Shown here one piece after another: positions 1-33,777 of a DNA stretch of 37,747 nucleotides. Each line of letters opens with the position of its first letter. Positions within the stretch are counted from its first letter, which is position 1. Under the pieces are notes generated by a model. It had not been told where the DNA came from. It searched no databases and was given only the letters and a program-made list of their open reading frames with translations. The translations under genes and the position numbers were made by a program. Location of the stretch: assembly GCA_001784115.1 (NCBI GenBank), contig MFPD01000027.1:1-37747 (forward strand). Direction: 5' to 3'. This DNA comes from Candidatus Levybacteria bacterium RIFCSPLOWO2_02_FULL_37_18. Its GTDB lineage: Bacteria > Patescibacteriota > Microgenomatia > Levybacterales > UBA12049.

Positions 1-192
1 CCTCAATGAGTCCAATCTTTTTTTTATCCAATCTCGTTCAACCTTTAATTTGCCGATTTGTTGATAGAGCTCCTGTATCAATTCTTCCCTGTTTTTCTTG
101 CCTTTTTTAATTGCATCAAAAGGCATGTCATTAAGTTCTAAATGCCAATCCATACCAGGTAACTGTTCACGCTTCCGACACGATCTCGTCAT
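1..192 (-). pseudogene. IS3-like transposase (OrfA-type C-terminal part), N-terminally truncated, runs off the window
   Basis: The minus frame is open from an ATG at 192 (another at 153) to the window edge. It contains the stretch EELIQELYQQIGKLKVERDW followed by IKK. This resembles the C-terminal leucine-zipper-like end of IS3-family OrfA proteins (ELYxQIGxLKVExDWLKKK). The helix-turn-helix part that should precede it is absent. Instead the frame starts inside a palindromic repeat, so the 5' end of the gene was probably lost or replaced. The rest, possibly an OrfB integrase part, lies outside the window. No terminal inverted repeat of an IS is visible. The family call rests on a short stretch and is tentative. 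Confidence 0.5.
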
Positions 193-253
193 CCTGAACG
201 TAGTAAAGGATCTATTCGGTAAAAGATTCTTCTGCTTTCAGTCTCAGAATGAC
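188..253. repeat. Palindromic interspersed repeat (GTCATCCTGA...TCAGAATGAC)
   Basis: The element begins GTCATCCTGAACG and ends CTCAGAATGAC, so its ends are inverted copies of each other. It belongs to the same family as the copies in valS, the polymerase gene and upstream of galE. It is flanked by a second inverted repeat, 159-175 against 266-282, matching at 15 of 17 positions. It lies between ruvC and the truncated transposase. Confidence 0.75.
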
Positions 254-1710: not shown

Positions 1711-2159
1711 AATCTTCTCGCATCTTCAAAAAATGGATCAATTGACAAAGCTTTTTCTATATACAATTTTGCAGCTTGTTTATTTCCCAATTGATACCTC
1801 AGGAGGGCAATTCTATAATAAGCGTCTTTAAAACCTTTATAATCTTGGATTATCTTGTTCCAAAACTCAATTTCCAGCAAAATTTTTTGCCTGTCTATTT
1901 CCACCTGTTTTCTTTTACTAAACAACTCATAGCCTTTTCCCAATTCAACTATAATTAATAACAAAAGCGTTCCAGATATAACTACCACCCAAAATTGTTT
2001 TGTTTTCCAATGTTTTAGAATTTTTTTTGCTTCGGTAATAAATCGGGAAAAAGTCGGGAATTGGTTTTTGCTCAAGACAAATCTTTTTTCTGAAGCTATT
2101 TGAACTTTATTTGCAGATTTTTTAAATTTTTTAGGCGGCAATTTTTTCATACAGGCCAC
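1692..2159 (-). CDS. Small TPR protein with one membrane segment
   Basis: The 155-residue product has a basic cytoplasmic N-terminus (about 50 residues). One transmembrane helix follows (FWVVVISGTLLLLIIVELG), then a short coiled region and a TPR-like pair of helices. The C-terminal repeat YYRIALLRYQLGNKQAAKLY resembles a TPR unit. It may be a membrane-anchored scaffold, but no specific function is recognisable. The start is either GTG at 2159 or ATG at 2150; the gene overlaps the end of valS, so the two are probably cotranscribed. Pairing of this gene with valS is the only functional context. Confidence 0.7.
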   Translation of the reverse strand: MACMKKLPPKKFKKSANKVQIASEKRFVLSKNQFPTFSRFITEAKKILKHWKTKQFWVVVISGTLLLLIIVELGKGYELFSKRKQVEIDRQKILLEIEFWNKIIQDYKGFKDAYYRIALLRYQLGNKQAAKLYIEKALSIDPFFEDARRLKKLLK

Positions 2160-4363
2160 GAGGAAATCATGATGGAATCTTTATTCCCCAGTTTTTGGTA
2201 AATTTCCTCAGTCACAAACGGCATAAAAGGATGAAGCAGTTTAAGAAGTATTATGTATAAAGTATAAAGTATTAAGTATGAATTATCATCGAGACGATTT
2301 TTAACATCTTCTATATAAATATCTGCAAATTCATGCCAGATATACTCATAAAGTCGTTCTGCTGCTAAGTTGAATTGGTGCTTATCAATAAAAATTGTTA
2401 TTTCATTGGATAAGTCTTGTGTTTTCTCAATCCACTCTTTATCATTGTCATTTTTAGCAGTCTTAAACAGTATTTTTATGTCATTCAGAGGGAGCGCAGC
2501 GACCGAAGAATCTCTTGACGCATTAACAGATCCTTCGCTTCGCTCAGGATGACTCAATGAAGAACGTTTCATTTCAATGAAGCGGGCTATATTCCAAATT
2601 TTATTAGAAAATTTTTTCATGGCATCAAGTTTTCCATATGACATTGCCTGATCATGACCAAGTGCTGTTCCGTACACTAAGGCCATTCTCACTGCGTCTG
2701 CTCCGTACTGCTCAACAAGCTCCAATGGGTTTACCACATTGCCTTTACTTTTACTCATTTTCTTACCGTACGGGTCATTTACCAATCCATGCAATACTAC
2801 ATGTGTAAACGGAACCTTAGTAGTGCTATATATTCCAAGCATAACCATTCTTGATACCCATGCTTTTAAAATATCGTACCCGGTTTCCATTACAGAAGTC
2901 GGATAGAATCGTTCAAAGTCTCCCTGTTTGCTGGTTTTAAGAGTCACAACTGGCCATTGTCCAGATGAAAACCAGGTATCAAAGGTGTCAGTATCTTGTT
3001 CTAGGTCTTTTGAACCGCACTTGAGGCATTTTTCTGGTTTAGAACCGTCTGTAACAACCCAACCATCATTGCTCGATTGTTCCATTGTTCTATTGTTAGA
3101 TCCTGAAACGAGTTCAGGATGACATCGTAAACACTTCCAGGCTGGGATTCTTATTCCCCACACAATTTGGCGAGAAATATTCCAATCCCGTAAATTTTCA
3201 AGCCATTGAAAATATAATGTTTCAAAGTTTTTAGGAAAAATCTTTACTTCTCCGCTTTTAACCGCTGCTATTGCTTTTTCTGTAAATGATTTTACTTTTA
3301 CAAACCACTGCTCCATTGGAAGCGGCTCTAAAACTGTTTTGCATTTATAACAAACTCCTATTCTATGAACATATTCCTCGTCTATTTTTTCAATGAGCTC
3401 TTTTTGCTTCATTTCAGTAATAATTGCCTCCCTTGCTTTTTTCACATACATGCCAGCAAATTTCCCCGCATGCTCATTCATAGTACCGTCATAATTAATA
3501 ACTTGTTTTAGAGGAAGATTGTGTCTTTGGGCTACTTCATAATCATTAAAATCATGAGCAGGGGTAATTTTCACTACACCAGTACCAAACTGCAGATCCA
3601 CATATTCATCTGATATCACTTTAATCTTTGCCTTTCCAAGTACTGTTTCTATTTCAATTTCTTTTCCTACAAACTTTTTATATCGCTTGTCTTTTGGATT
3701 AACAGCAACTGCAGTATCTCCAAATTTGGTCTCTGGTCTAGTTGTTGCAAGCACTAACGGACCGTATTTTACATAATACAGCGGACTTTTCCGCTCTTCA
3801 TGCACAACTTCCAAATCAGAAAAAGATGTTCCGTCTTTTGTACAATAATGAACAAGCCGAAATCCTCTGTAAATAAGTCCTTCGTCATACATTTTTTTAA
3901 AAGTTTTATACACAAGTTTGACAATTTCAGGATCTAAGGTATATTTTTCCCGCGACCAATCTAGAGAAAATCCAAGCCTTCTAAGCTGATTTTCTATTTT
4001 ACCTCCAGATGACTTTACAAAATCCCAAATCATTGAATAAAGCTCTTCTTGTGAATAATCAAATCGAGATTTGCTTTGGCTTTGGAGTTGTTTCTCAAAT
4101 ACGAATTGCGTTTCAAATCCAGCATGATCTGTCCCAGGAAGCCACAAAACTGCCTCCCCCTTCATACGATGAAAGCGGATTAAAATGTCTTCTATGACAA
4201 ACATTGCGTGTCCAAAATGAAGATCTCCATTTGCATTCGGAGGCGGCAAAATTATGCAGTAGGGTTTTCCACCAGGATTGACTTCAGGCTTAAAATATCC
4301 CTTTTCTTCCCACTGCTTATATAATCTTTCTTCGACTAACCTGGGTTCATACACCTTGTCCAT
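2147..4363 (-). CDS. valS: Valyl-tRNA synthetase with two repeat-derived insertions
   Basis: This is a class Ia aminoacyl-tRNA synthetase that charges tRNA-Val. The ATP-binding signature HFGH lies in PPPNANGDLHFGH, the editing domain has TTRPETKFGDTAV, and KMSKSKGNVVNP is the second signature. I start at the ATG at 4363 (MDKVYEPRLVEERLY) rather than 4387, because it fits the family and lies 7 bases after a promoter. The product has about 738 residues and ends at ISSWPV, so it lacks the usual C-terminal coiled-coil tRNA arm. Two extra segments are encoded by interspersed repeats. One, HPELVSGSN..., splits a zinc-ribbon-like CxxC pair; the other, SHPERSEGSVNASRDSS, lies before the anticodon-binding helices. 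Both keep the frame. The stop TGA overlaps the next gene. Confidence 0.95.
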   Translation of the reverse strand: MDKVYEPRLVEERLYKQWEEKGYFKPEVNPGGKPYCIILPPPNANGDLHFGHAMFVIEDILIRFHRMKGEAVLWLPGTDHAGFETQFVFEKQLQSQSKSRFDYSQEELYSMIWDFVKSSGGKIENQLRRLGFSLDWSREKYTLDPEIVKLVYKTFKKMYDEGLIYRGFRLVHYCTKDGTSFSDLEVVHEERKSPLYYVKYGPLVLATTRPETKFGDTAVAVNPKDKRYKKFVGKEIEIETVLGKAKIKVISDEYVDLQFGTGVVKITPAHDFNDYEVAQRHNLPLKQVINYDGTMNEHAGKFAGMYVKKAREAIITEMKQKELIEKIDEEYVHRIGVCYKCKTVLEPLPMEQWFVKVKSFTEKAIAAVKSGEVKIFPKNFETLYFQWLENLRDWNISRQIVWGIRIPAWKCLRCHPELVSGSNNRTMEQSSNDGWVVTDGSKPEKCLKCGSKDLEQDTDTFDTWFSSGQWPVVTLKTSKQGDFERFYPTSVMETGYDILKAWVSRMVMLGIYSTTKVPFTHVVLHGLVNDPYGKKMSKSKGNVVNPLELVEQYGADAVRMALVYGTALGHDQAMSYGKLDAMKKFSNKIWNIARFIEMKRSSLSHPERSEGSVNASRDSSVAALPLNDIKILFKTAKNDNDKEWIEKTQDLSNEITIFIDKHQFNLAAERLYEYIWHEFADIYIEDVKNRLDDNSYLILYTLYIILLKLLHPFMPFVTEEIYQKLGNKDSIMISSWPV
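2480..2553. repeat. Palindromic interspersed repeat inside valS
   Basis: The element runs from GTCATTCAGAGGGAGCG to TTCGCTCAGGATGAC, with inverted ends typical of the family in this window. On the valS strand it is read as SHPERSEGSVNASRDSSVAA with no stop codon. Confidence 0.8.
3060..3123. repeat. Shorter interspersed repeat inside valS
   Basis: GATCCTGAAACGAGTTCAGGATGAC (3099-3123) is a hairpin-forming half element next to an ATTGTTC/TATTGTT micro-repeat. On the valS strand it encodes HPELVSGS, an insertion compared with the usual zinc-ribbon loop of the enzyme. Confidence 0.65.
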
Positions 4364-4379: not shown

Positions 4380-4482
4380 TAGAACAAGAGAACGTAGAAG
4401 AAGTTACTTTTTCCCGAGGATTCCCCGAATAATTCCCGCTTAAGACTCGCATGCTCCTTCGGCGAGGCTGGCCCGATCCGAT

Positions 4483-5912: not shown

Positions 5913-7346
5913 ATGTCCGATATGCCAGCATTAACAGCCGAACGAGGGATAGTTGCTCCTCATGGAGCAATGCTCACAGGAGAAGCACTCAAGGCTCAAC
6001 TTGTTCAAGTAAGTCCTGAGCGATCAAGGGATGCACTCTATGGAGTAATCGAGTCTCCTTTGGCAACAGCCGTACAAGAAGTAACAGTTGGCCCTTACAA
6101 CGGGGAATTAAATGGCCAGGATGTTAAAAACTTCCTTTCTTCGCCCTCTGAAGTACTAGTGGTAGGATGCGGAAGAAACGAAGCGCAAAATGGAAACCTT
6201 GCCCCTAATCTTGCCTATATGCAAGAAAGCACCAATGGAGCAGGAAATGTATTGTTTGTAGATGCCAACTCCACTGACAATTCCGTAGATACCGCACGAG
6301 CTATGGGAGTAGATGTATTAAGACGCGGAGACGTGCTTACGGAAGTCGTCGATAGAAGAGCTCTTGCTGAAATTCTTGCAATACCGCCAGAGGTATTAGA
6401 AGGCAAGGAAATCACCAGACAACCTCCTCTCCGAAAAGGAATTGATGTACTTATTGCTCGTATTTTGCTTCTCCAAGCTAAAAAAGCAGGACTTGCCCCA
6501 AAACATGTTCTTTTTTCAGACACAGACCTTAAATCCATTCCAGGAGGATCCCTGCAAAAATATCTAATTGGCATGGCTCAGGTAGAAAATAAGACGGCTG
6601 ACGAAAAAGGAACACAACTTAAAGATCCTACAGAAGACAGAAAAGTCTACAGACCCCTTCAACTTGTCGCACGGGCTGCAATTGACTTAAATAAAAAACG
6701 AAGAGACGGAAGAGAACAACAAGGTATATTTACTGGCTCTGAGAATAGAAATAACGAATCTATTTTCGTGTTTGGAAATATGGCAGAAGTCGACTCTGTT
6801 TCTCCATTTTTAAATGAAAGGCAAAGAGAAATTGCCCTTGCCTTAAGTGTAACGCCTGATCTTATTGTCCATCCCTTAACAGGAGAACTTATTATTGCTA
6901 CAGACTCTGAGCTAAGAGCTATGGGAGCAACAGGACAGTGTGTTGAAATTGCTCGCATTATCTCTCTTGCTGGAGAACAACATACTACCCTTGGCAGTTC
7001 TGATCCGCAATTCTTAAAAGATGTCTTACCCCTTGTAGGTAATGTACGCAGAGGCGAACAACAAAGAATTGACGAACCACAAACTGACGCGAAAGAATGG
7101 TGGATGATAGGAGAAGTTATTCCTAAATTCTGGAGAGCTACTACAGAATACATGATACAAACTGGTAAATTTTCTCATGAATTCAGCATGGAAGATTATA
7201 CTAGATTAAATAGATGGCTTCGAGATAGCCGAAGAGGCAGCAGGCTTAATAATCAAACCCAAACAAGAGAAATCGATGAATTCCCCATGGAACGCGCAAT
7301 TCCCTCTGTCCAACAGCTTGACGAAGCAGGGCTGTTAAAAATTTAA
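5913..7346 (+). CDS. GT-A glycosyltransferase, similar to glucosyl-3-phosphoglycerate synthase (GT81-like)
   Basis: GT81 enzymes transfer a sugar from a nucleotide sugar to 3-phosphoglycerate. The product (477 residues from the ATG at 5913) has a GT-A nucleotide-binding start VLVVGCGRNEAQ (about 81-92), the strand-turn VDANSTDNS (about 116-124) and a DxD motif in LFSDTDLKS (about 202-206). HPLTGEL (about 319) followed by QCVEIA (about 343) resembles the PLxGE...VE acceptor region of GpgS enzymes. The ORF-track start at a TTG (5895) lies in the promoter, so the ATG is preferred. No signal peptide is seen, so it is cytoplasmic. Its stop overlaps that of the convergent alanine racemase. A mannosyl-3-phosphoglycerate synthase or another GT2-like role is possible; the substrate is inferred from motifs and neighbours. 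Confidence 0.6.
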   Translation: MSDMPALTAERGIVAPHGAMLTGEALKAQLVQVSPERSRDALYGVIESPLATAVQEVTVGPYNGELNGQDVKNFLSSPSEVLVVGCGRNEAQNGNLAPNLAYMQESTNGAGNVLFVDANSTDNSVDTARAMGVDVLRRGDVLTEVVDRRALAEILAIPPEVLEGKEITRQPPLRKGIDVLIARILLLQAKKAGLAPKHVLFSDTDLKSIPGGSLQKYLIGMAQVENKTADEKGTQLKDPTEDRKVYRPLQLVARAAIDLNKKRRDGREQQGIFTGSENRNNESIFVFGNMAEVDSVSPFLNERQREIALALSVTPDLIVHPLTGELIIATDSELRAMGATGQCVEIARIISLAGEQHTTLGSSDPQFLKDVLPLVGNVRRGEQQRIDEPQTDAKEWWMIGEVIPKFWRATTEYMIQTGKFSHEFSMEDYTRLNRWLRDSRRGSRLNNQTQTREIDEFPMERAIPSVQQLDEAGLLKI

Positions 7347-8506
7347 TCGATTAGCATCCGAGGTATCCTTTTTCCGTTAATATTTACAATATACTCAAAC
7401 CAAAATGTACCCATTTTTTCTGCTACTTCTTCTATAGTAATTTCTTCATCTCCTTGTTTTCCGATAATAACAACCTCATCACCTAACGCAAAATCTCCTT
7501 CATTTGGAAGCTTTAGAACTGTTTGATTCATGGAAATAAGACCAATAATTGGAGCTTTTTTTCCACCCACAAGCATACAACCCACCTCATGGGAAAGACT
7601 ACGCCTATAACCATCTGTATATCCCATAGGCACAATTCCTATACGAGTATCTTTCTCTGCTTTCCATGTCCGCCCATAACCAACCGTAGAACCAGCTGGA
7701 ATCGTTTTTACACATGCAAGTTTTGCTTTTAGCGCAACCATTGCTCGCTTTGGAGTAAAAGCGAATGGAAAGTCTCCCGGAGGTAAGCCATAAATTATAT
7801 TTCCAGGTCTTACTGCACTTAATCGCTTCTTAGGATCATCTCTATGCATTTTTGGCAATCTCATAACAGATGCCCCGTTGGCAACATGAATATATGACGG
7901 TAAGGGTATATTATTTGACTGAAGCTCATCTAAATAATGATTAAATACTTCTAATTGTTCGTAGGCAAAGCTTGGGTCATCATCTCCTGCTGTAGCAAAA
8001 TGAGTCATAATACCTTCTAAGTCAACATGAGGAGATTCATGAACTTCTTTTGCAAGCATAATTGCCTCTTCATTTGGCCATATCCCTTCCCTATGCATCC
8101 CAGTGTCAACATATAAATGAACCCGCGCCTTTTTACCGATTTTTCCCGCAGTATTTTCTATAGCTGGAAACATTTCGCTATCTGAAATCGCCAAAACCAT
8201 ATCTAATTCTAGAGCCTCTACAATATTACTAGAATCTACATAGTCTAAAACAAGCAAGGGAATTTTGACTCCTCCTTGTCGTAGCTCTTTTGCTTCTCGA
8301 AATGCCGATACCCCCACATACTTAGCACCGAGGTCTTGAAGTATATTCCCAACTAACACAGAGTCATGGCCATACCCATTAGACTTTATCATTGGTATTA
8401 TTGTTATTTTTTCCCCTACTGTTTCCTGAATAGATCTCCAGTTATACTCAATATTTTTCCTGCTTATTTCCATCCAGACCGGATGATCTCTTTTTTTGTC
8501 GTTCAT
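7343..8506 (-). CDS. alr: Alanine racemase (copy 1)
   Basis: This fold-type III PLP enzyme interconverts L- and D-alanine for peptidoglycan. The PLP lysine lies in MIKSNGYGHD (Lys41), the second catalytic base is the Tyr in VGYGRTW, and IVPMGYTDGYRR and VDTGMHREG are family motifs. The usual MDQ motif reads MNQ. The length (387) is normal. The gene is last in a minus-strand run with the broken hexokinase-like gene and the HAD gene. A CATAAT box 6 bases before its ATG might give it a separate transcript. This copy is closer to consensus than the paralogue at 10683 and is the better candidate for the housekeeping enzyme. Confidence 0.9.
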   Translation of the reverse strand: MNDKKRDHPVWMEISRKNIEYNWRSIQETVGEKITIIPMIKSNGYGHDSVLVGNILQDLGAKYVGVSAFREAKELRQGGVKIPLLVLDYVDSSNIVEALELDMVLAISDSEMFPAIENTAGKIGKKARVHLYVDTGMHREGIWPNEEAIMLAKEVHESPHVDLEGIMTHFATAGDDDPSFAYEQLEVFNHYLDELQSNNIPLPSYIHVANGASVMRLPKMHRDDPKKRLSAVRPGNIIYGLPPGDFPFAFTPKRAMVALKAKLACVKTIPAGSTVGYGRTWKAEKDTRIGIVPMGYTDGYRRSLSHEVGCMLVGGKKAPIIGLISMNQTVLKLPNEGDFALGDEVVIIGKQGDEEITIEEVAEKMGTFWFEYIVNINGKRIPRMLID

Positions 8507-10682: not shown

Positions 10683-11882
10683 CTAACTATTTGTCATTAC
10701 ACGAGGCAATCGTGTGGTATGTTGAAGCTTTGTTACATAACGTATAACATTTGTTTCCATACTCTCCGCGAGTTCCTCCAACGTAATTTCTTCATCTCCT
10801 TGTTTACCTACGATAACAACTTCGTCACCTAAGCAATATGTCTCATCAATTGGAAGCTTTAGAACCACCTGATTCATTGCTGCTCTATCTAAAATAGAAA
10901 CTCGTTTTCCGTGAATAAGCATTGATCCTCCTGAATCACGAGGACGGTAGTCGTCGGCATGTCCCACATTTACAATCCCCATTGTTGTATCTTCATCTAA
11001 TTTTGTACCTCCATACCCTACTTCCTCACCCTTAGAAACTGTTTTATAGCCTGCAAGTTTTGCTTTAATTGCAGTTAGAATTTTCTTTGGTGCAAATTTC
11101 ATATATTGGGAAAAATCCTCGCTACCCGGCGTAAAACCATACACAATATTTCCTGGACGAACTGCTGTAAATCTTCCCGTATATGTCTTTAGAATTCTCA
11201 TGATAGTTGCTCCTTCTGCTGCGTGTACGTAAAGAGGCAACTGGATACCTCTTTTCTCTACATTATCCAAGAATTCGTTAAATATACCCAGTTGCTTGTA
11301 AGTTTTTGTGAGATCGGGATTTGTTGGGTCGGCAAAATGAGTCATCAATCCCTCTAGGTCAACATGTGAAGACTGGTGAATTTTTTCTACAATCTCAACC
11401 GCCTCTTGTGGTGGCCAAATTCCCTCACGATGCATGCCTGTATCTACAAAAACATGCACTTTTGCTTTTTTCCCTAACTTTTTCGCCGTGTCTTCAATTT
11501 CAGGAAACATCTGGACATGAGAGACTGTTAAAGCAACATTCATATTCAATGCTGCTGGAAGGTTTTCTGGATCGACATAGTCAGTAACCAAAAGAGGAAA
11601 ATTAATCCCATTGCATCTAAGCTCAAACGCCTCACCAAGCGTTGATACCCCAGCATATCGTGCTCCTGATTCTTGAAGCACTTTCCCGACTTCTACGGCT
11701 CCATGACCATAGGCATTAGCTTTTAACATTGGGATTACTGTTACATCCGGACCAACAATTGACGCTATAGCATTCCAGTTGTGTTCAAGGTTTGGTCTGC
11801 TTAGCTCTACCCAAGCAGAATGCCCTTTAAATTCTTTTTTAGGAGCTTTAAGTTGCTCTTCTGATTCGTTTGTTTCTAACAT
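10683..11882 (-). CDS. Alanine racemase paralogue (copy 2, divergent)
   Basis: It is similar along its length to the copy at 7343 and keeps the PLP lysine (MLKANAYGHG) and the Tyr of VGYGGTK. It diverges in the GYADGYPR motif, which reads GHADDYRPR, and has AAMNQ where family members usually have VSMDQ. These changes lie in the active-site half, so substrate range or activity may differ. The track start at a TTG (11921) lies upstream of a TATAAT box. The ATG at 11882 (MLETNESEEQ), 10 bases after that box, is preferred. It heads the minus-strand run alr2-HAD-hexokinase-alr1. Confidence 0.8.
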   Translation of the reverse strand: MLETNESEEQLKAPKKEFKGHSAWVELSRPNLEHNWNAIASIVGPDVTVIPMLKANAYGHGAVEVGKVLQESGARYAGVSTLGEAFELRCNGINFPLLVTDYVDPENLPAALNMNVALTVSHVQMFPEIEDTAKKLGKKAKVHVFVDTGMHREGIWPPQEAVEIVEKIHQSSHVDLEGLMTHFADPTNPDLTKTYKQLGIFNEFLDNVEKRGIQLPLYVHAAEGATIMRILKTYTGRFTAVRPGNIVYGFTPGSEDFSQYMKFAPKKILTAIKAKLAGYKTVSKGEEVGYGGTKLDEDTTMGIVNVGHADDYRPRDSGGSMLIHGKRVSILDRAAMNQVVLKLPIDETYCLGDEVVIVGKQGDEEITLEELAESMETNVIRYVTKLQHTTRLPRVMTNS

Positions 11883-11892
11883 ATGTGAAAAC

Positions 11893-11898
11893 ATTATA
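11893..11898 (-). promoter_or_regulatory. -10 box of the divergent alanine racemase gene
   Basis: A TATAAT on the minus strand lies 10 bases before the ATG at 11882. TTGCGT at 11921-11916 (17-base spacing) is a weak -35. Confidence 0.55.
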
Positions 11899-11965
11899 TT
11901 TATTTTAACTAGTTTACGCAAGATTATCTATATTTTATACCCTAGTAAGCAATTTAGAGATATTG

Positions 11966-14255: not shown

Positions 14256-15047
14256 ATGAGTACTCAAGATTCCAAAAACTCTCAAAAGATTCTTGATCTT
14301 TTAAAAAAAGAGTATCCCAATGCTAAAATCATTTTAAATTATTCGAATGAATGGGAATTGTTGGTTGCGGTGATATTGTCAGCACAATGTACTGACGTGA
14401 TGGTAAACAAAGTGACAAAAAAACTGTTTAAAAAATACAGAAGCCTAAATCTATCATCGCGAGCGAAGCGTGGCGATCTCAAGTCTAAAGAGATTGCTTC
14501 GTCACAAGCTCCTCGCAATGACAGTTCACGCCTTGATCGAACAATAACACCAGAAACTCAAGAAATAATAAACTTTGCCGAGGTTCCAATAGCTGAACTG
14601 GAACAAGATATACGGTCTACAGGTTTTTATAAAAATAAAGCCAATAATATTCGGGCAGCTGCAAAACTCGTTCTTGAACAGTTCAACGGAGTACTACCAC
14701 GAACTATGAACGAACTAACTAAGCTACCGGGTGTTGCTCGAAAAACTGCAAACGTTGTTCTAGGAAATGCTTTTGGAATACTTGAAGGAATTGCAGTTGA
14801 TACTCATGTTGGAAGATTATCTCAAAGACTGGGACTTTCTGACCAAAAAGACCCGAACAAAATCGAACAAGACCTTATGAAGCTCTATGATAAAAAAGAT
14901 TGGTTTAAACTCACCTATTTACTAATTGAACACGGCAGAAAAGTCTGCGTTGCTAAAAAACCAAAATGCGACGGGTGTATACTTAACAAACTGTGCCCCA
15001 ACGCATTCAAGTTCTCACACTTTAAAAATTATCCTAAGGATAATTAA
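14256..15047 (+). CDS. nth: Endonuclease III with a repeat-derived insertion
   Basis: Nth is a bifunctional DNA glycosylase/AP lyase for oxidised pyrimidines. The helix-hairpin-helix with the catalytic Lys is LPGVARKTANVV, the catalytic Asp lies in AVDTHVGRLSQ, and the 4Fe-4S cluster motif C-x6-C-x2-C-x5-C is complete (CVAKKPKCDGCILNKLC). The 263 residues exceed the usual ~210. The extra ~40 start after LFKKYRSLN and are encoded by an interspersed repeat (SSRAKRGDLKSKEIASSQAP...). They sit between early helices, away from the catalytic motifs, so activity may survive. It is third in the run after the hydrolase and hexokinase genes. Confidence 0.92.
   Translation: MSTQDSKNSQKILDLLKKEYPNAKIILNYSNEWELLVAVILSAQCTDVMVNKVTKKLFKKYRSLNLSSRAKRGDLKSKEIASSQAPRNDSSRLDRTITPETQEIINFAEVPIAELEQDIRSTGFYKNKANNIRAAAKLVLEQFNGVLPRTMNELTKLPGVARKTANVVLGNAFGILEGIAVDTHVGRLSQRLGLSDQKDPNKIEQDLMKLYDKKDWFKLTYLLIEHGRKVCVAKKPKCDGCILNKLCPNAFKFSHFKNYPKDN
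14454..14522. repeat. Palindromic interspersed repeat inside nth
   Basis: The element runs from TCATCGCGAGCGAAGCG to CTCCTCGCAATGAC, with inverted ends. It is the GTCATTGCGAG subfamily also found upstream of galE and in the polymerase gene. It is translated in frame without a stop. Confidence 0.8.
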
Positions 15048-16560: not shown

Positions 16561-16679
16561 TTCATACTTGATACAATTACATCTATCATTCCGAGTTCTG
16601 ATTGAAGAACGAAAAATCTCTATAAGAAAGATTGCTTCGCCCGCCTTTGGCGAGGCTCGCAATGACAAACAAGTATGAA
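16561..16679. repeat. Palindromic interspersed repeat with flanking perfect inverted repeat, upstream of galE
   Basis: The core (16586-16666) runs from TCATTCCGAG to GGCTCGCAATGAC. It is bracketed by TTCATACTTG (16561-16570) and its exact reverse complement CAAGTATGAA (16670-16679). The right arm contains the ATG of galE. It fills the whole gap between two genes. Confidence 0.75.
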
Positions 16680-20811: not shown

Positions 20812-22272
20812 TCAATAGCCATTGTTTTTATTGTAGCAAAGACCGAGGATAAAAGAAAAAAGCAATTGCCCCTGCTGTAGTGTAAGAAAATAATGATCAA
20901 ACAAACCAATGATTAAAATTGTGAAAAGTAGTGTGGCTCCGGGTGCACCCCGATTGAATCGGGACAAACCGGAATGACGAACCGCGTTCAAAATGAACCA
21001 AATAAAGAATGTGAATCCTACAATTCCGGTTTCCGCCAATAGTAACAAATAAATATTGTGCACCGGCTGGAGCAGTATTGTTTTTGTGTTTGAACTTATA
21101 TAATCAGGCAGATTAATAAGAAAATTATTTAAGCCTACTCCAAACAAAGGATGATTTCTGAAGATAGATAATGCTGCTTTATTAAGTTCTGTTCTATACA
21201 CTATGGATTCGTCGCTTAGTTGGATACTAAACCGAGAGAATAGGGGAAAGAAGAATAATCCAAAAAGTAAAAAAGCAAATAATCCAATTAGCCAATACGT
21301 CTTAATTTTTGTTCTTAACTGAACAATCAGCCGATATGCAAATATTAAAATGTACAATAGAACTGCAGTTCTGCTCATTGTTAAAAACAATGCGACCGAA
21401 CCAAAAGTAACAATGCTTGTCATTCCGAACGAAGTGAGGGATCTCTTTTCCACAATGACAGAACGCGTATGTGTATTGAGTAGCATTTGCAAGACAATGA
21501 GGAGATAGCCTGCGAGCACATTCGGATGGGAAAAAGTTCCGTATGGTCTAAGAACCAACGCGCCGTTTAAAGAAGCATTCGCAATGCCGGGAGTTTGAGG
21601 ATTAAAAAATCGCTCGCCGAAAAAATAAAATATTCCCTGTAGAGATCCTTGATGCAGATACTGGGCAGTTGCAAGAAAAGACTCAAATACAACTCCTATG
21701 CTAAAAAGTGTAATCAACCGATTATTGCTAAACCTGAATTTAAGCGCTGTATAATACCCAAAGAAAATAAGCTCCAAAAGTTTTATAAATCCATACAATC
21801 CCAGTTGGGGAAATTTGGAAAAAACAATTCCGGTTCCAAGAGACAGAAAGAAAATAAAATAACAAATGTCATTGCGAGGAGTCAAGAATAAAGCTGGACG
21901 ACGAAGCAATCTTAAGAGATTCTGAATCCCATTCGGCAGGCTCAAGGCCTGAGCGGAGTCGAACGACAAGTTCAGAATGACAGGAATAAGATTGCTTCTC
22001 CACCAGCTGACTCCTCGCAATGACAAAAATGAGTCAATGAGCCATAAAACAATCAATAATAAAATCAATACATCAGTCATGTATATCGTGGGGGAAAGGT
22101 AGTCAATTCGCAGTCCAAGAACTTTTGAATACTCCGGCCAAAAATGAAGACCAAGTTGAGTAGGGAGAAAAAGAATAATTGAATAAAAAAGAAGTAGCTC
22201 TGTCATTGCAAGAAGTTCTTTAGAACGACGAAGCAGTCTGTGTTCAAAAAAGATTGCCGCGATCATATTCAT
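20812..22272 (-). CDS. O-antigen polymerase/ligase-like membrane protein with several repeat-derived segments
   Basis: Wzy/WaaL-type proteins polymerise or ligate polysaccharide at the outer face of the membrane. The product has roughly ten hydrophobic helices. It also has the O-antigen ligase region with PYGTFSHPNVLAGYLLIVLQ and NHPLFGVGLNNFL, and a following VHNIYLLLLAETG. The N-terminal 22 residues, ~50 residues (83-134) between early helices, IVEKRSLTSFGM and a C-terminal HSGLSRFNRGAPG are all encoded by interspersed repeats. The native start may be the ATG at 22206 (MTELLLFYS). Despite four elements the frame is open throughout, suggesting either tolerated loop insertions or recent decay. 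Confidence 0.8.
   Translation of the reverse strand: MNMIAAIFFEHRLLRRSKELLAMTELLLFYSIILFLPTQLGLHFWPEYSKVLGLRIDYLSPTIYMTDVLILLLIVLWLIDSFLSLRGVSWWRSNLIPVILNLSFDSAQALSLPNGIQNLLRLLRRPALFLTPRNDICYFIFFLSLGTGIVFSKFPQLGLYGFIKLLELIFFGYYTALKFRFSNNRLITLFSIGVVFESFLATAQYLHQGSLQGIFYFFGERFFNPQTPGIANASLNGALVLRPYGTFSHPNVLAGYLLIVLQMLLNTHTRSVIVEKRSLTSFGMTSIVTFGSVALFLTMSRTAVLLYILIFAYRLIVQLRTKIKTYWLIGLFAFLLFGLFFFPLFSRFSIQLSDESIVYRTELNKAALSIFRNHPLFGVGLNNFLINLPDYISSNTKTILLQPVHNIYLLLLAETGIVGFTFFIWFILNAVRHSGLSRFNRGAPGATLLFTILIIGLFDHYFLTLQQGQLLFSFILGLCYNKNNGY
20935..20978. repeat. Interspersed repeat in the 3' part of the polymerase gene
   Basis: The stretch GGCTCCGGGTGCACCCCGAT...ATCGGGACAAACCGGAATGAC contains short inverted repeats (CCCGAT/ATCGGG) and the family end GGAATGAC. 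It is in frame within the polymerase gene. Confidence 0.55.
21419..21459. repeat. Interspersed repeat in the middle of the polymerase gene
   Basis: GTCATTCCGAACGAAGTGAG...CACAATGAC is a short copy of the GTCATTC family. It encodes VIVEKRSLTSFGMT in frame between two hydrophobic helices. Confidence 0.65.
21868..22024. repeat. Nested interspersed repeats in the polymerase gene
   Basis: The outer element has perfect 16-bp inverted ends, GTCATTGCGAGGAGTC and GACTCCTCGCAATGAC. Inside it a second element runs from ATTCTGAATCCC to GTTCAGAATGAC. Both are translated in frame. This is an element of one subfamily inserted into one of another. Confidence 0.8.
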
Positions 22273-22286
22273 TCGCTCGCAATGAC
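22202..22286. repeat. Interspersed repeat at the 5' end of the polymerase gene
   Basis: GTCATTGCAAGAAGTTC...TCGCTCGCAATGAC has the family ends. It covers the gap to jag and the first ~22 codons of the polymerase ORF, which bears on the start codon choice. Confidence 0.7.
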
Positions 22287-22288
22287 GG

Positions 22289-22741
22289 TTAACGGGGTCT
22301 TATAACCAGGGCTCTGTCTCTTCCAACTCCGGTAGATTCTGAAACCACTTCGTTATCTTCTACAAGCAGCATATGAATTATCCGGCGTTCCCAGGATTTT
22401 AAATGAGAAAGCGACATTTCTCTTTGCTCGGAAAGCACTCGTTCCTTTGTCTTAAGAGCAAGATTTGTTAAATAATCAGTTCTGTTTTTCTTGTAATCTC
22501 CTGCTTCGATAGAAACCCTGACAAATTTTCCCAGTTTTTTAGAAACTGCCAAAGAGGCAATCAACTGAAGACTTTCCAAAACCTCGCCGTGGTACCCAAT
22601 AACAATTCCCATGTCATTTGTATCCAACAAGACATGAAGGGTTTCATTGTCAAAAGAAAGCTCAAACGTCCCTTCAATTTCTAACGCTTTAAGCAAATCT
22701 TCTATTGTTTTAAAAACTTTCTTTTCTTCTTTTTTATCCAT
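22289..22741 (-). CDS. jag: KH-R3H RNA-binding protein (Jag/KhpB/EloR)
   Basis: This RNA-binding protein is linked to control of cell elongation in other bacteria. The KH domain shows MGIVIGYHGEVLESLQ with the GxxG loop, and the R3H domain shows WERRIIHMLL (RxxxH) followed by STGVGRDRALVI. The Jag_N domain is absent, giving 150 residues instead of ~200-300. It starts 2 bases after yidC, the conserved order at bacterial origins (rpmH-rnpA-yidD-yidC-jag). Confidence 0.93.
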   Translation of the reverse strand: MDKKEEKKVFKTIEDLLKALEIEGTFELSFDNETLHVLLDTNDMGIVIGYHGEVLESLQLIASLAVSKKLGKFVRVSIEAGDYKKNRTDYLTNLALKTKERVLSEQREMSLSHLKSWERRIIHMLLVEDNEVVSESTGVGRDRALVIRPR

Positions 22742-31337: not shown

Positions 31338-33140
31338 CTATGAATTAGAGATGTTTGCCTGTTGTGTTGTATTAGCAGGAGGAATTTGTTGGGCTTGCTG
31401 TTTTGCTAAGAGTTCTTCCGGATTTGAGGTAATAAGCGTATGCTCAAACGGCGCCGCCATAACCTTCATGACAACATGATTTTGTCCGGCAAAAAATAAC
31501 CCTTCTCCAATGCCGGAACCAACCAAGAGTTGCTTCTCGCCCTCGGTTAAAAAAAAGGTTTTAGAAACAATGTCAGCCTCAGCTGTGCCTTGCCGTAAGA
31601 GAATTTGGATAGAGGAGTTTGACAAAACTGCTTTACCATAGTCAGTTGATAAAAAATCTTCTACGTCTTGAGTAGCTGTTGTTAATCCTAAGTAGTATTT
31701 CCTGGCCCGTTTGGCAATACTATAGACATACGAAGCAGAGTCCTCATATCTCATCATATACCACGCCTCATCTAAAATCAAAAGCCTTTTTTTGAGTGTT
31801 TTTCGAATTCTCGTCCAGACAAAATCTAAAATTATATGCATGGCAATGGGGCGCAGGGTTTCTTCAAGTCCCCGGATCGAAAACACAGTCATGGGGTTGG
31901 TGATATTAAAATTAGATTGCTGGTTAAAAATGCCTGCTAAACTTCCTTTAATAAATCGTTCTAAAAGCAGCGCTAAGTTTTTAGCAACAGGATCTTCCAT
32001 GCCCAAAAGCGTTTTGTATAAATCTTCCATTAAAGGTGGTTCTTTGGTTTGGGTCGCAGGATCAGGGGTTATGCCTTTTTGCCGGTAGGCTTCAACTAAA
32101 GCTCTGTCTAGAATTGCTTCCTGGGCAGCATCGAGTTTTCCCACCACTATTTTTAAAAGCCCGTGCAAAGACAAAATTTTAAGTCCTAATTCATTTTCTC
32201 CTTCTTGGTAAAGCCCGGAAAGATCAAACGGATTCATTCTTATAGGTGAGGCAGGAGTAAAAGAAAGAATCTCTCCGTTTAGAGAGCGGGTTAATTCCGT
32301 GTATTCTCCTTCCGGGTCAACAATAATTACTTCCGTGCCAAACATAAACTGCCGCATTGCCTCAAGTTTAATGAGGTATGATTTTCCCGAACCCGACTTG
32401 CCCAAAACGACTTCATTCGCGTTTTCCAGAGAAAACCTGTCAAAAATGACTAAAGATCCATTCTGCTCGTTTATGCCGTATAAAACACCTTTGTTTTGAG
32501 TCAGTGTGGCAGACGTAAATGGAAATGTTGACGCTAAGGAAGACGTATCCATGTTTCTGGTGATAAAAAGCCTGTTTTGGCCTAAAGGCATAGTTGATTT
32601 TACTCCGTCTTCCATTTGCAGAGTGGCAGTTTTTTCAACCAAAAGTACAGACGACAATGTTGCTTTTAAGCGTTTTGTCGCTTCCTCTAAATCAGAAAGC
32701 GTAGGGGAAGAAAGGGTAATGTAAAAGCTAAAATGGAAAAACCGCTCAATTCCTTTGGCAAGTTCTTCCTGAAGCGCTAACGCGTCTTCAAGACCTGCCT
32801 GAATAGTCGGGTCAAGCACCTTGCCTTTTTCTTGCTCGGAAGAAAGTGTTGCTTCCATTTCCGCGATTTTTCTTTTTAAATTGGTTAAGATATCGCCTGA
32901 CTCGGTCGGGTAGATAAACATGGAAAGATCCAGTGAGTGATCAAAGTTAATCAGCGGTTCAAGCCAGTTGGCAGATACGTATCTTGGGTAACCAACCATA
33001 AAAATCGTGCGATAGAACATGTCCCCAACTCGTATGTAGCGAAAATCAACTTCAACCGAAGAAGGGGCAAGAAGATCAGGCAGGGAAACCATGCCTTTTT
33101 CAAGGTTTTGTAATATGTTTTGATTAGGTTGTTTTGCCAT
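31338..33140 (-). CDS. VirB4/TraC-type secretion ATPase
   Basis: VirB4 ATPases energise assembly of type IV secretion and conjugation machines. The 600-residue product has Walker A VLGKSGSGKSYLIK (~247-254) and Walker B RLLILDEAWYMM (~452). Typical VirB4 stretches include IIVDPEGEYTELTRSL and YYLGLTTATQDVEDFL, the last resembling the RAD-like glutamine motif. The N-terminal domain is partly in the separate upstream gene 33124, which overlaps by 17 bases. A possible Shine-Dalgarno (AAAGGGG) precedes its ATG. It is the strongest anchor for calling the operon secretion-like. Confidence 0.92.
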   Translation of the reverse strand: MAKQPNQNILQNLEKGMVSLPDLLAPSSVEVDFRYIRVGDMFYRTIFMVGYPRYVSANWLEPLINFDHSLDLSMFIYPTESGDILTNLKRKIAEMEATLSSEQEKGKVLDPTIQAGLEDALALQEELAKGIERFFHFSFYITLSSPTLSDLEEATKRLKATLSSVLLVEKTATLQMEDGVKSTMPLGQNRLFITRNMDTSSLASTFPFTSATLTQNKGVLYGINEQNGSLVIFDRFSLENANEVVLGKSGSGKSYLIKLEAMRQFMFGTEVIIVDPEGEYTELTRSLNGEILSFTPASPIRMNPFDLSGLYQEGENELGLKILSLHGLLKIVVGKLDAAQEAILDRALVEAYRQKGITPDPATQTKEPPLMEDLYKTLLGMEDPVAKNLALLLERFIKGSLAGIFNQQSNFNITNPMTVFSIRGLEETLRPIAMHIILDFVWTRIRKTLKKRLLILDEAWYMMRYEDSASYVYSIAKRARKYYLGLTTATQDVEDFLSTDYGKAVLSNSSIQILLRQGTAEADIVSKTFFLTEGEKQLLVGSGIGEGLFFAGQNHVVMKVMAAPFEHTLITSNPEELLAKQQAQQIPPANTTQQANISNS

Positions 33141-33777
33141 TTTGTGCCCCTTTTACTACAGGTATTTGGATATCTTCGGATGTTGTTGCCGCGTCAATGT
33201 CGCTTTGGAGGGGATTAAATACAGAATAAAACAATCTTACCAATTCTTCTTTTTGTAAAACCTTTGCTTTTAGGTTAGTGCGGGCAATTTGCTCTAAGAG
33301 CGCGTTTGTCTTTGTGGTTAACGATGCTTTTGCCTGCGTGATAAAATCTTTGCTTTTTATGGCATGAGTTGCCCCCAGCTCTAAAGAAGAAAAAGAAATA
33401 ACGACATAAAAGCGTTTGTCCAAAATGCTGTTTTGTCTTACCAGTTCTCCGATATATTGACGGTATTGGGTAATATAGGTACCAAGCTTTTGCTCTTTTG
33501 CTTTCTGGGCTTCTCCGTCAAGTAGCTTAAGATACGAAGAAATATCTTCCCGTTTGCTTTTGATCAAGATCTGAATGGGGAATGAAAGCGAGTTTAATAA
33601 GCCCGCGTATCCTGCGATTTTGGCGTATTGTTCGGCTTGGGACAAAAGGGCAAAGTTAGTTGCTTCAATTTCGATTATCGAACACGCAAAGCCGTTGGTT
33701 AAAGCAACCACAGTATCTACTATATCCGCGATTTCGGTAAAGTATTGAGTTGTCGCGTGAATTTTTGTTTTGCTCAT
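33124..33777 (-). CDS. TraC/VirB4 N-terminal-domain-like protein
   Basis: The 217 residues look like the small N-terminal domain found at the start of TraC/VirB4 ATPases. They include the opening TTQYFTEIADIVDTVVALTNG and the stretch ALLSQAEQYAKIAGYAGLLNSLSFPIQILIKSKR. There is no P-loop. It overlaps PrgI by 4 bases upstream and the ATPase by 17 downstream, so the three are coupled and probably form one complex at the membrane's inner face. Confidence 0.75.
   Translation of the reverse strand: MSKTKIHATTQYFTEIADIVDTVVALTNGFACSIIEIEATNFALLSQAEQYAKIAGYAGLLNSLSFPIQILIKSKREDISSYLKLLDGEAQKAKEQKLGTYITQYRQYIGELVRQNSILDKRFYVVISFSSLELGATHAIKSKDFITQAKASLTTKTNALLEQIARTNLKAKVLQKEELVRLFYSVFNPLQSDIDAATTSEDIQIPVVKGAQNGKTT

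Follow-up and report, generated by a model that had tools for sequence, protein, structure and literature searches.

CGTC-tagged REP elements lying in frame in two loops of a Levybacteria valyl-tRNA synthetase

How can an essential enzyme contain segments made of dispersed repeat DNA? This question is raised by valS, the gene for valyl-tRNA synthetase (ValRS), in Candidatus Levybacteria bacterium RIFCSPLOWO2_02_FULL_37_18. The window, i.e. the whole stretch analysed, is the 37,747-nt contig C27 (MFPD01000027.1) of a 1.11-Mb genome in 31 contigs. A sequence-only reading had reported two repeat copies inside this gene, and both are indeed present, in frame and without stop codons (Table 1). Very probably, these segments are insertions of CGTC-tagged REPs, which are tolerated in permissive loops where the gene stays intact.

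Table 1. Repeats and their host genes in the window
Feature	Position	Strand	Description
valS	2150-4363	minus	valine--tRNA ligase, 738 aa from ATG; profile, fold and sequence matches
Copy A	2480-2553	minus	REP dimer, tags outside; valS residues 605-628, HPERSEGSVNASRDSSVAALPLND
Tandem tract	3065-3097	minus	AACAATRG type; adjoins Copy B; read NNRTMEQSSND
Copy B	3098-3123	minus	single REP; valS residues 415-422, HPELVSGS
REP dimer	188-253		same family; intergenic; reference copy outside a gene
REP dimer	14452-14522		one arm with degenerate tag; in frame in nth (14256-15044, plus)
REP, ATTGC type	16629-16666	minus	intergenic
REP, ATTGC type	21868-21912	plus	in frame in O-antigen ligase-like ORF (20815-22299, minus)
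REP	21989-22024	minus	in the same O-antigen ligase-like ORF
REP	22251-22286	minus	5' end of the same O-antigen ligase-like ORF

The valS product is a full-length ValRS (823 bits with the NCBIfam valS profile, cut-off 612), whose nearest solved structure, both by sequence and fold, is Thermus ValRS 1gax. An alternative start codon, TTG at 4387, would yield 746 aa. The catalytic motifs HFGH (49-52) and KMSKS (535-539) are undamaged. The nearest named ValRS relatives are from Candidatus Levybacteria/Levyibacteriota MAGs within the Microgenomates. valS is the sole ValRS match in the genome; second among the matches listed comes a 981-aa ORF with a 30% match, probably isoleucyl-tRNA synthetase.

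Copy A consists of two inverted arms (2480-2513 and 2528-2553) with a spacer of 14 nt, the commonest dimer spacer length in the repeat sample described below. Copy B is composed of the tag TGTC, the stem ATCCTGAA/TTCAGGAT, the loop CTCGT and the tail CT. It forms a hairpin with a perfect 8-bp stem and a 5-nt loop, and none of 200 shuffles folds equally well. The peptide HPELVSGS is located between the two zinc knuckles of the enzyme, C411xxC414 and C446xxC449. Since the codon for C414 is the TGT of the Copy B tag, the insert parts two CxxC pairs and breaks neither. Contrary to the sequence-only reading, no CxxC pair is split. An AlphaFold model of the valS product, based on 27 sequences, has a normal ValRS fold with a mean pLDDT of 85.7. 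The only stretches with pLDDT below 50 are residues 418-424 and 605-625, which overlap the two REP peptides. As this is confined to the inserts, they look, in the model, like disordered loops added to an otherwise ordinary enzyme.

The repeat was searched for in an unbiased sample of 527 kb, comprising 30 contig slices (whole contigs or their first 20 kb) and the window. The scan pattern was GTCAT, three variable bases, a short gap, three complementary bases, AT and a short tail. It found 156 copies (134 elements) compared with a single one in the reversed control, so that an essential enzyme, as had been claimed, carries segments of a dispersed repeat. An earlier, looser copy finder without limits on tail and stem had yielded 189 matches vs. 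33 in the control and was then tightened. Because the scan itself requires pairing, it was rerun without the demand for complementarity: 145 of 212 tag-to-tail pairs had complementary arms, whereas 0 of 32 did in the control, and there were 13 stem triplets, i.e. the hairpin stems covary. In its own genome, the exact repeat pattern has 13 matches vs. none in the backwards control.

With GTC and AT fixed by the pattern and the first tag base free, 145 of the 156 copies have the tag TGTC (104) or CGTC (41). Tails are CT(C/A/T) in 123 copies and CCA in 4. Among 46 dimers, 42 are oriented tags-out, 4 in tandem and none tags-in. Stems of 8-9 bp were found in 43 copies, whereas 93 have only five uninterrupted pairs followed by mismatches. 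At least nine stem types occur within one genome. Extrapolation yields about 330 copies for the whole genome. A survey of 287 Patescibacteria genomes found the ATTGC subtype in 65 of them and no match in the control; its count in the source genome, 72, is the highest among the matches listed. A search of the window against Rfam gave no match, and a plasmid search only weak ones (Halomonas, Methylocystis, Tolypothrix). A literature text search for HPELVSGS and the repeat DNA cores found no description. The O-antigen ligase-like ORF of the window (Wzy_C) contains at least three REP copies, and parts of its N-terminal half are repeat-derived.

ValRS alignments were made with 29 relatives and then with 44 non-redundant ValRS. 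The zinc-knuckle segment (site 1, the position of Copy B) is 50 residues long in the window, whereas most relatives have 25-32. REP DNA at site 1 or at site 2, the position of Copy A, is also found in the relatives L002, L015, L016, L027, L062 and L066. At site 1, REPs occur as full dimers in L015 and L002 and as a single copy in L027, and L003, L004, L008 and L056 have simple tandem tracts; tracts related to that of the window occur here in L003, L004, L008, L027 and L056. At site 2, REP dimers are present in L002, L016, L062 and L066. They are read as VILNEVKDL in L062 and L066 and in the HP frame in L002, L016 and the window. Many Levybacteria ValRS have neither insert, while others have different REPs in the same loops, with two frames used. 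In L001, L002 and L015, the site-1 REPs begin at the identical nucleotide, and the TGT of the tag is the second Cys codon.

In a ValRS tree made without the insert columns, parsimony requires the REP state to change at least four times per site. Inner branches of this tree are weak, L001, L002 and L027 are close together on branches with 80-90 support, and L062 and L066 have a junction in common, so the safe minimum is two separate events per site. Judged from these alignments, both valS segments are insertions. All relatives have at most about 74% amino acid identity; hence there is no clean single-event pair of an empty and a filled site at the DNA level. In nth, the insert of 40 residues includes the REP dimer, and 14 relatives provide the empty site.

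Other sequences were observed in ValRS as well. Tandem tracts of several types (AACAATRG, AAATTCG, AAATCCG, AAAAATC) occupy the same two loops in frame in the window, L003, L004, L008, L010, L013, L015 and L056, as if these loops accepted any repeat. L049, another Levybacteria ValRS, has a different repeat-like insert at site 2, SAFAKASTVAKALADKSADK. The ValRS of L029 (436-2949, minus), L064 (1004-3511, plus) and L066 (577-3066, plus) share an insert of about 100 residues directly after the catalytic-domain motif QWP(Y/F)(A/V)TL. Its pattern is MGF..V..KGKTKTYRLR..F..GD.V.F.NT.., and it has no Pfam match of its own. Elsewhere in the window, a TraG/VirB4-type P-loop ATPase is represented by two overlapping ORFs of 600 and 217 aa (31338-33777, minus), the upstream one without a Pfam match; this may be a split gene or a frameshift. 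Two paralogous ORFs about 2.2 kb apart (7343-8506 and 10683-11921, minus), with conserved stretches of 78-84% DNA identity, have the look of alanine racemases.

Insertions in genes are not confined to valS and nth. In the unbiased sample, 33 of 110 elements (~30%) lie in frame in coding-like ORFs with a coding signal on both sides. Genes were called from codon usage and Pfam, not by a gene finder, and coding-like DNA defined in this way makes up 88% of the sample. Only 46 of the 110 elements are inside it vs. 85% expected under random placement, i.e. coding DNA is depleted of repeats. If insertion is uniform, about 6% of the insertions in coding DNA survive, calculated as (33/77) x (0.115/0.885). 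Extrapolated from 33 in 47%, the 1.1-Mb genome probably has about 70 in-frame inserts. Hosts of in-frame copies named by Pfam include MurB, FolD, a RadA-like ATPase, transketolase, TsaD, ribosomal protein L1, GAPDH, GatB (two), the large chain of carbamoyl-phosphate synthase, ATP synthase gamma, UvrA, LeuRS (two), TGT, TopA (two) and Nth.

What kind of element is this? The CGTC-tagged REP superfamily has a (C/T)GTC tag and a stem with AT at its base; tags-out (HH) dimers prevail, TT dimers are rare, some copies are intragenic, and transposase genes are not associated (Di Nocera et al., 2013, PMC3733652). Tag variants are TGTC and CCTC. The described families 1-4 have stems of 8-9 bp, loops of 4-5 nt and a short unpaired tail, mostly CCA, and the superfamily is known from five phyla, Patescibacteria being absent from the list (PMC3733652). 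The Levybacteria repeat has the same unpaired (T/C)GTC tag and AT-initiated stem. Tags-out dimers prevail here too, copies are found within genes, and no transposase is linked. It differs in its Patescibacteria host and in its tail, mostly CT(C/A/T), CCA being a majority trait of the superfamily and not definitional. Furthermore, in contrast to the described families, the stem of most copies is interrupted after 5 bp, ahead of an inner stem, and their loops are longer, one genome contains many stem types, and in-frame copies are frequent. Copy B itself, like the other copies with 8-9 bp stems, fits the described stem and loop sizes. Thus, the repeats match the CGTC-tagged REP superfamily by tag and architecture, but as tail and interrupted stem differ from the four described families, they are placed in no named family.

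The comparison with Rickettsia drawn in the sequence-only reading proved apt. RPE-4 and RPE-6 are CGTC REPs located in frame within genes of functional proteins (PMC3733652), and in-frame copies in valS, nth and Pfam-supported genes have this trait, too. These elements belong to the same class but to a distant phylum, and the likeness is one of description, not of alignment. RPE-1 (Ogata, 2000; reviewed in PMC2229807) is also palindromic and in frame in conserved genes, and a guanylate kinase with an RPE in it is both translated and active. However, RPE-1 measures 105-146 bp (PMC2229807), and it is not among the RPEs that Di Nocera et al. assigned to the CGTC REPs (PMC3733652). REPINs/RAYTs (GTAG REPs) resemble the Levybacteria repeat in their short hairpins, inverted pairs and many dispersed copies, but have a GTAG tag and a linked Y1 transposase, neither of which was found here. 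Target-site duplication, a trait of MITEs, was not found either: direct repeats of 2-9 nt are not enriched around 41 dimers. The element type itself is already known. Three aspects appear unreported in the searchable literature, which does not cover subscription papers: the Patescibacteria host, the large number of in-frame copies and the repeated use of two loops. No prior report on such repeats in CPR genomes was found there.

The following course of events is proposed. CGTC-tagged REPs, i.e. short hairpins that bear an unpaired (T/C)GTC tag and occur alone or in tags-out inverted pairs, would have dispersed through the genome and landed widely, and gene-breaking insertions would have been lost. 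Survivors would be those that keep the frame, contain no stop codon and lie in a solvent-exposed loop, where the extra peptide, to judge from the open frames presumably translated, may be neutral or mildly costly. Two ValRS loops would be permissive, one being the tip between the zinc knuckles and the other the linker that precedes the anticodon-binding helices, so that different lineages hold different repeats there.

Alternatively, the segments might be ordinary lineage-specific loops whose likeness to the repeat is due to chance or codon bias. Both sites do vary in length across many ValRS. Nevertheless, the complete repeat, with hairpin, tag and tail, is present at each and recurs at many unrelated loci, and the pairing is missing from the reversed control. 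The residues are not shared by relatives, which hold other REP subtypes at both sites. The genome-wide DNA repeat refutes this explanation, to which we give next to no chance. The sequence-only reading had proposed, in addition, that the elements are under selection to stay open where they land, which would mean that they evolved as protein-compatible inserts. Consistent with this, dimers within genes have more open frames than other dimers (0.50 vs. 0.235), and five frame classes are used; such an excess is, however, expected from conditioning on gene location. For elements outside genes, open frames are no commoner than in dinucleotide shuffles (dimers 0.235 vs. 0.291, sd 0.027; singles 0.643 vs. 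0.650 +/- 0.022), element lengths are not multiples of three, and coding DNA is avoided overall. The repeat was found in and out of genes, and the copies in genes use no single frame. Selection on the element is highly improbable on these grounds, and since intergenic copies resemble shuffles, the proposal is supported only as a purging of gene-breaking inserts: selection is seen on the host gene, not on the element.

The choice among the five frame classes is non-uniform (p=0.0012, n=39), which suggests that the inserted peptides are not fully neutral. The antisense ..RND/QND frame is over-represented in gene-embedded elements of the own genome (13 vs. 5.7 expected, n=39); our guess is that hydrophilic peptides are better tolerated. 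Perhaps, selection acts on peptide character and hydrophilic frames, too. This excess of one hydrophilic frame could also speak for recruitment of the REP loops for a function, tuning of ValRS or its zinc knuckle, which would explain why the same two places were hit repeatedly, three times at one nucleotide with the TGT of the tag as the second Cys codon. Yet peptide sequence, length and frame vary between relatives, many of which have no insert and several not even the Cys. Moreover, the inserts are predicted to be disordered, and unrelated simple tandem tracts occupy the same loops. Recruitment is, hence, very unlikely, and toleration of REP insertions is the preferred reading.

Which activity might move the repeats? 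We know of no mobiliser of CGTC REPs. The genome has six Y1 transposase loci, and no target-site duplications were found at the dimers, as is known for the IS200/IS605 family. They might accordingly be REPINs moved by genome-encoded RAYT (Y1) transposases. However, the tag is CGTC, not GTAG, and none of the six Y1 genes has repeats on both sides. In a comparison of 60 genomes, REP counts show no significant correlation with Y1 counts (rho 0.18, p 0.17), and REP carriers without Y1 as well as Y1-rich genomes without REPs occur. RAYT mobilisation is therefore unsupported, and we consider it quite unlikely. One of the six loci (L031/L035, G000:C31:11427-11791) has its Y1 gene in two frames, with ORFs of 81 and 91 aa, and is probably broken; at the remaining five, the ORFs are 224-288 aa long. 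A bolder proposal would be a Patescibacteria CGTC-REP system that is or was recently mobile by a non-RAYT mechanism with target preference, as three ValRS insertions at one nucleotide with the Cys TGT in the tag might indicate. Through it, many essential enzymes encoded by a reduced genome would gain translated loop peptides, and selection would act on which frame is tolerated. We regard this proposal as unlikely.

Overall, the finding is real and well supported: an element of known kind in a host group not reported before, with an unusually heavy in-frame load. In-frame palindromic insertions are best known in Rickettsia and Wolbachia. With the same class of element, Patescibacteria add another independent setting, of much greater diversity, for studying how selfish repeats enter proteins. 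Insertion tolerance becomes directly measurable, since related species hold different inserts in the same two ValRS loops. For annotation, caution is required: peptides like HPELVSGS, VILSEAKDL and SRAKRGDL are markers of DNA repeats, not of domains. Finally, a clade with many repeat-rich and repeat-free genomes offers material for finding the mobiliser of CGTC REPs.
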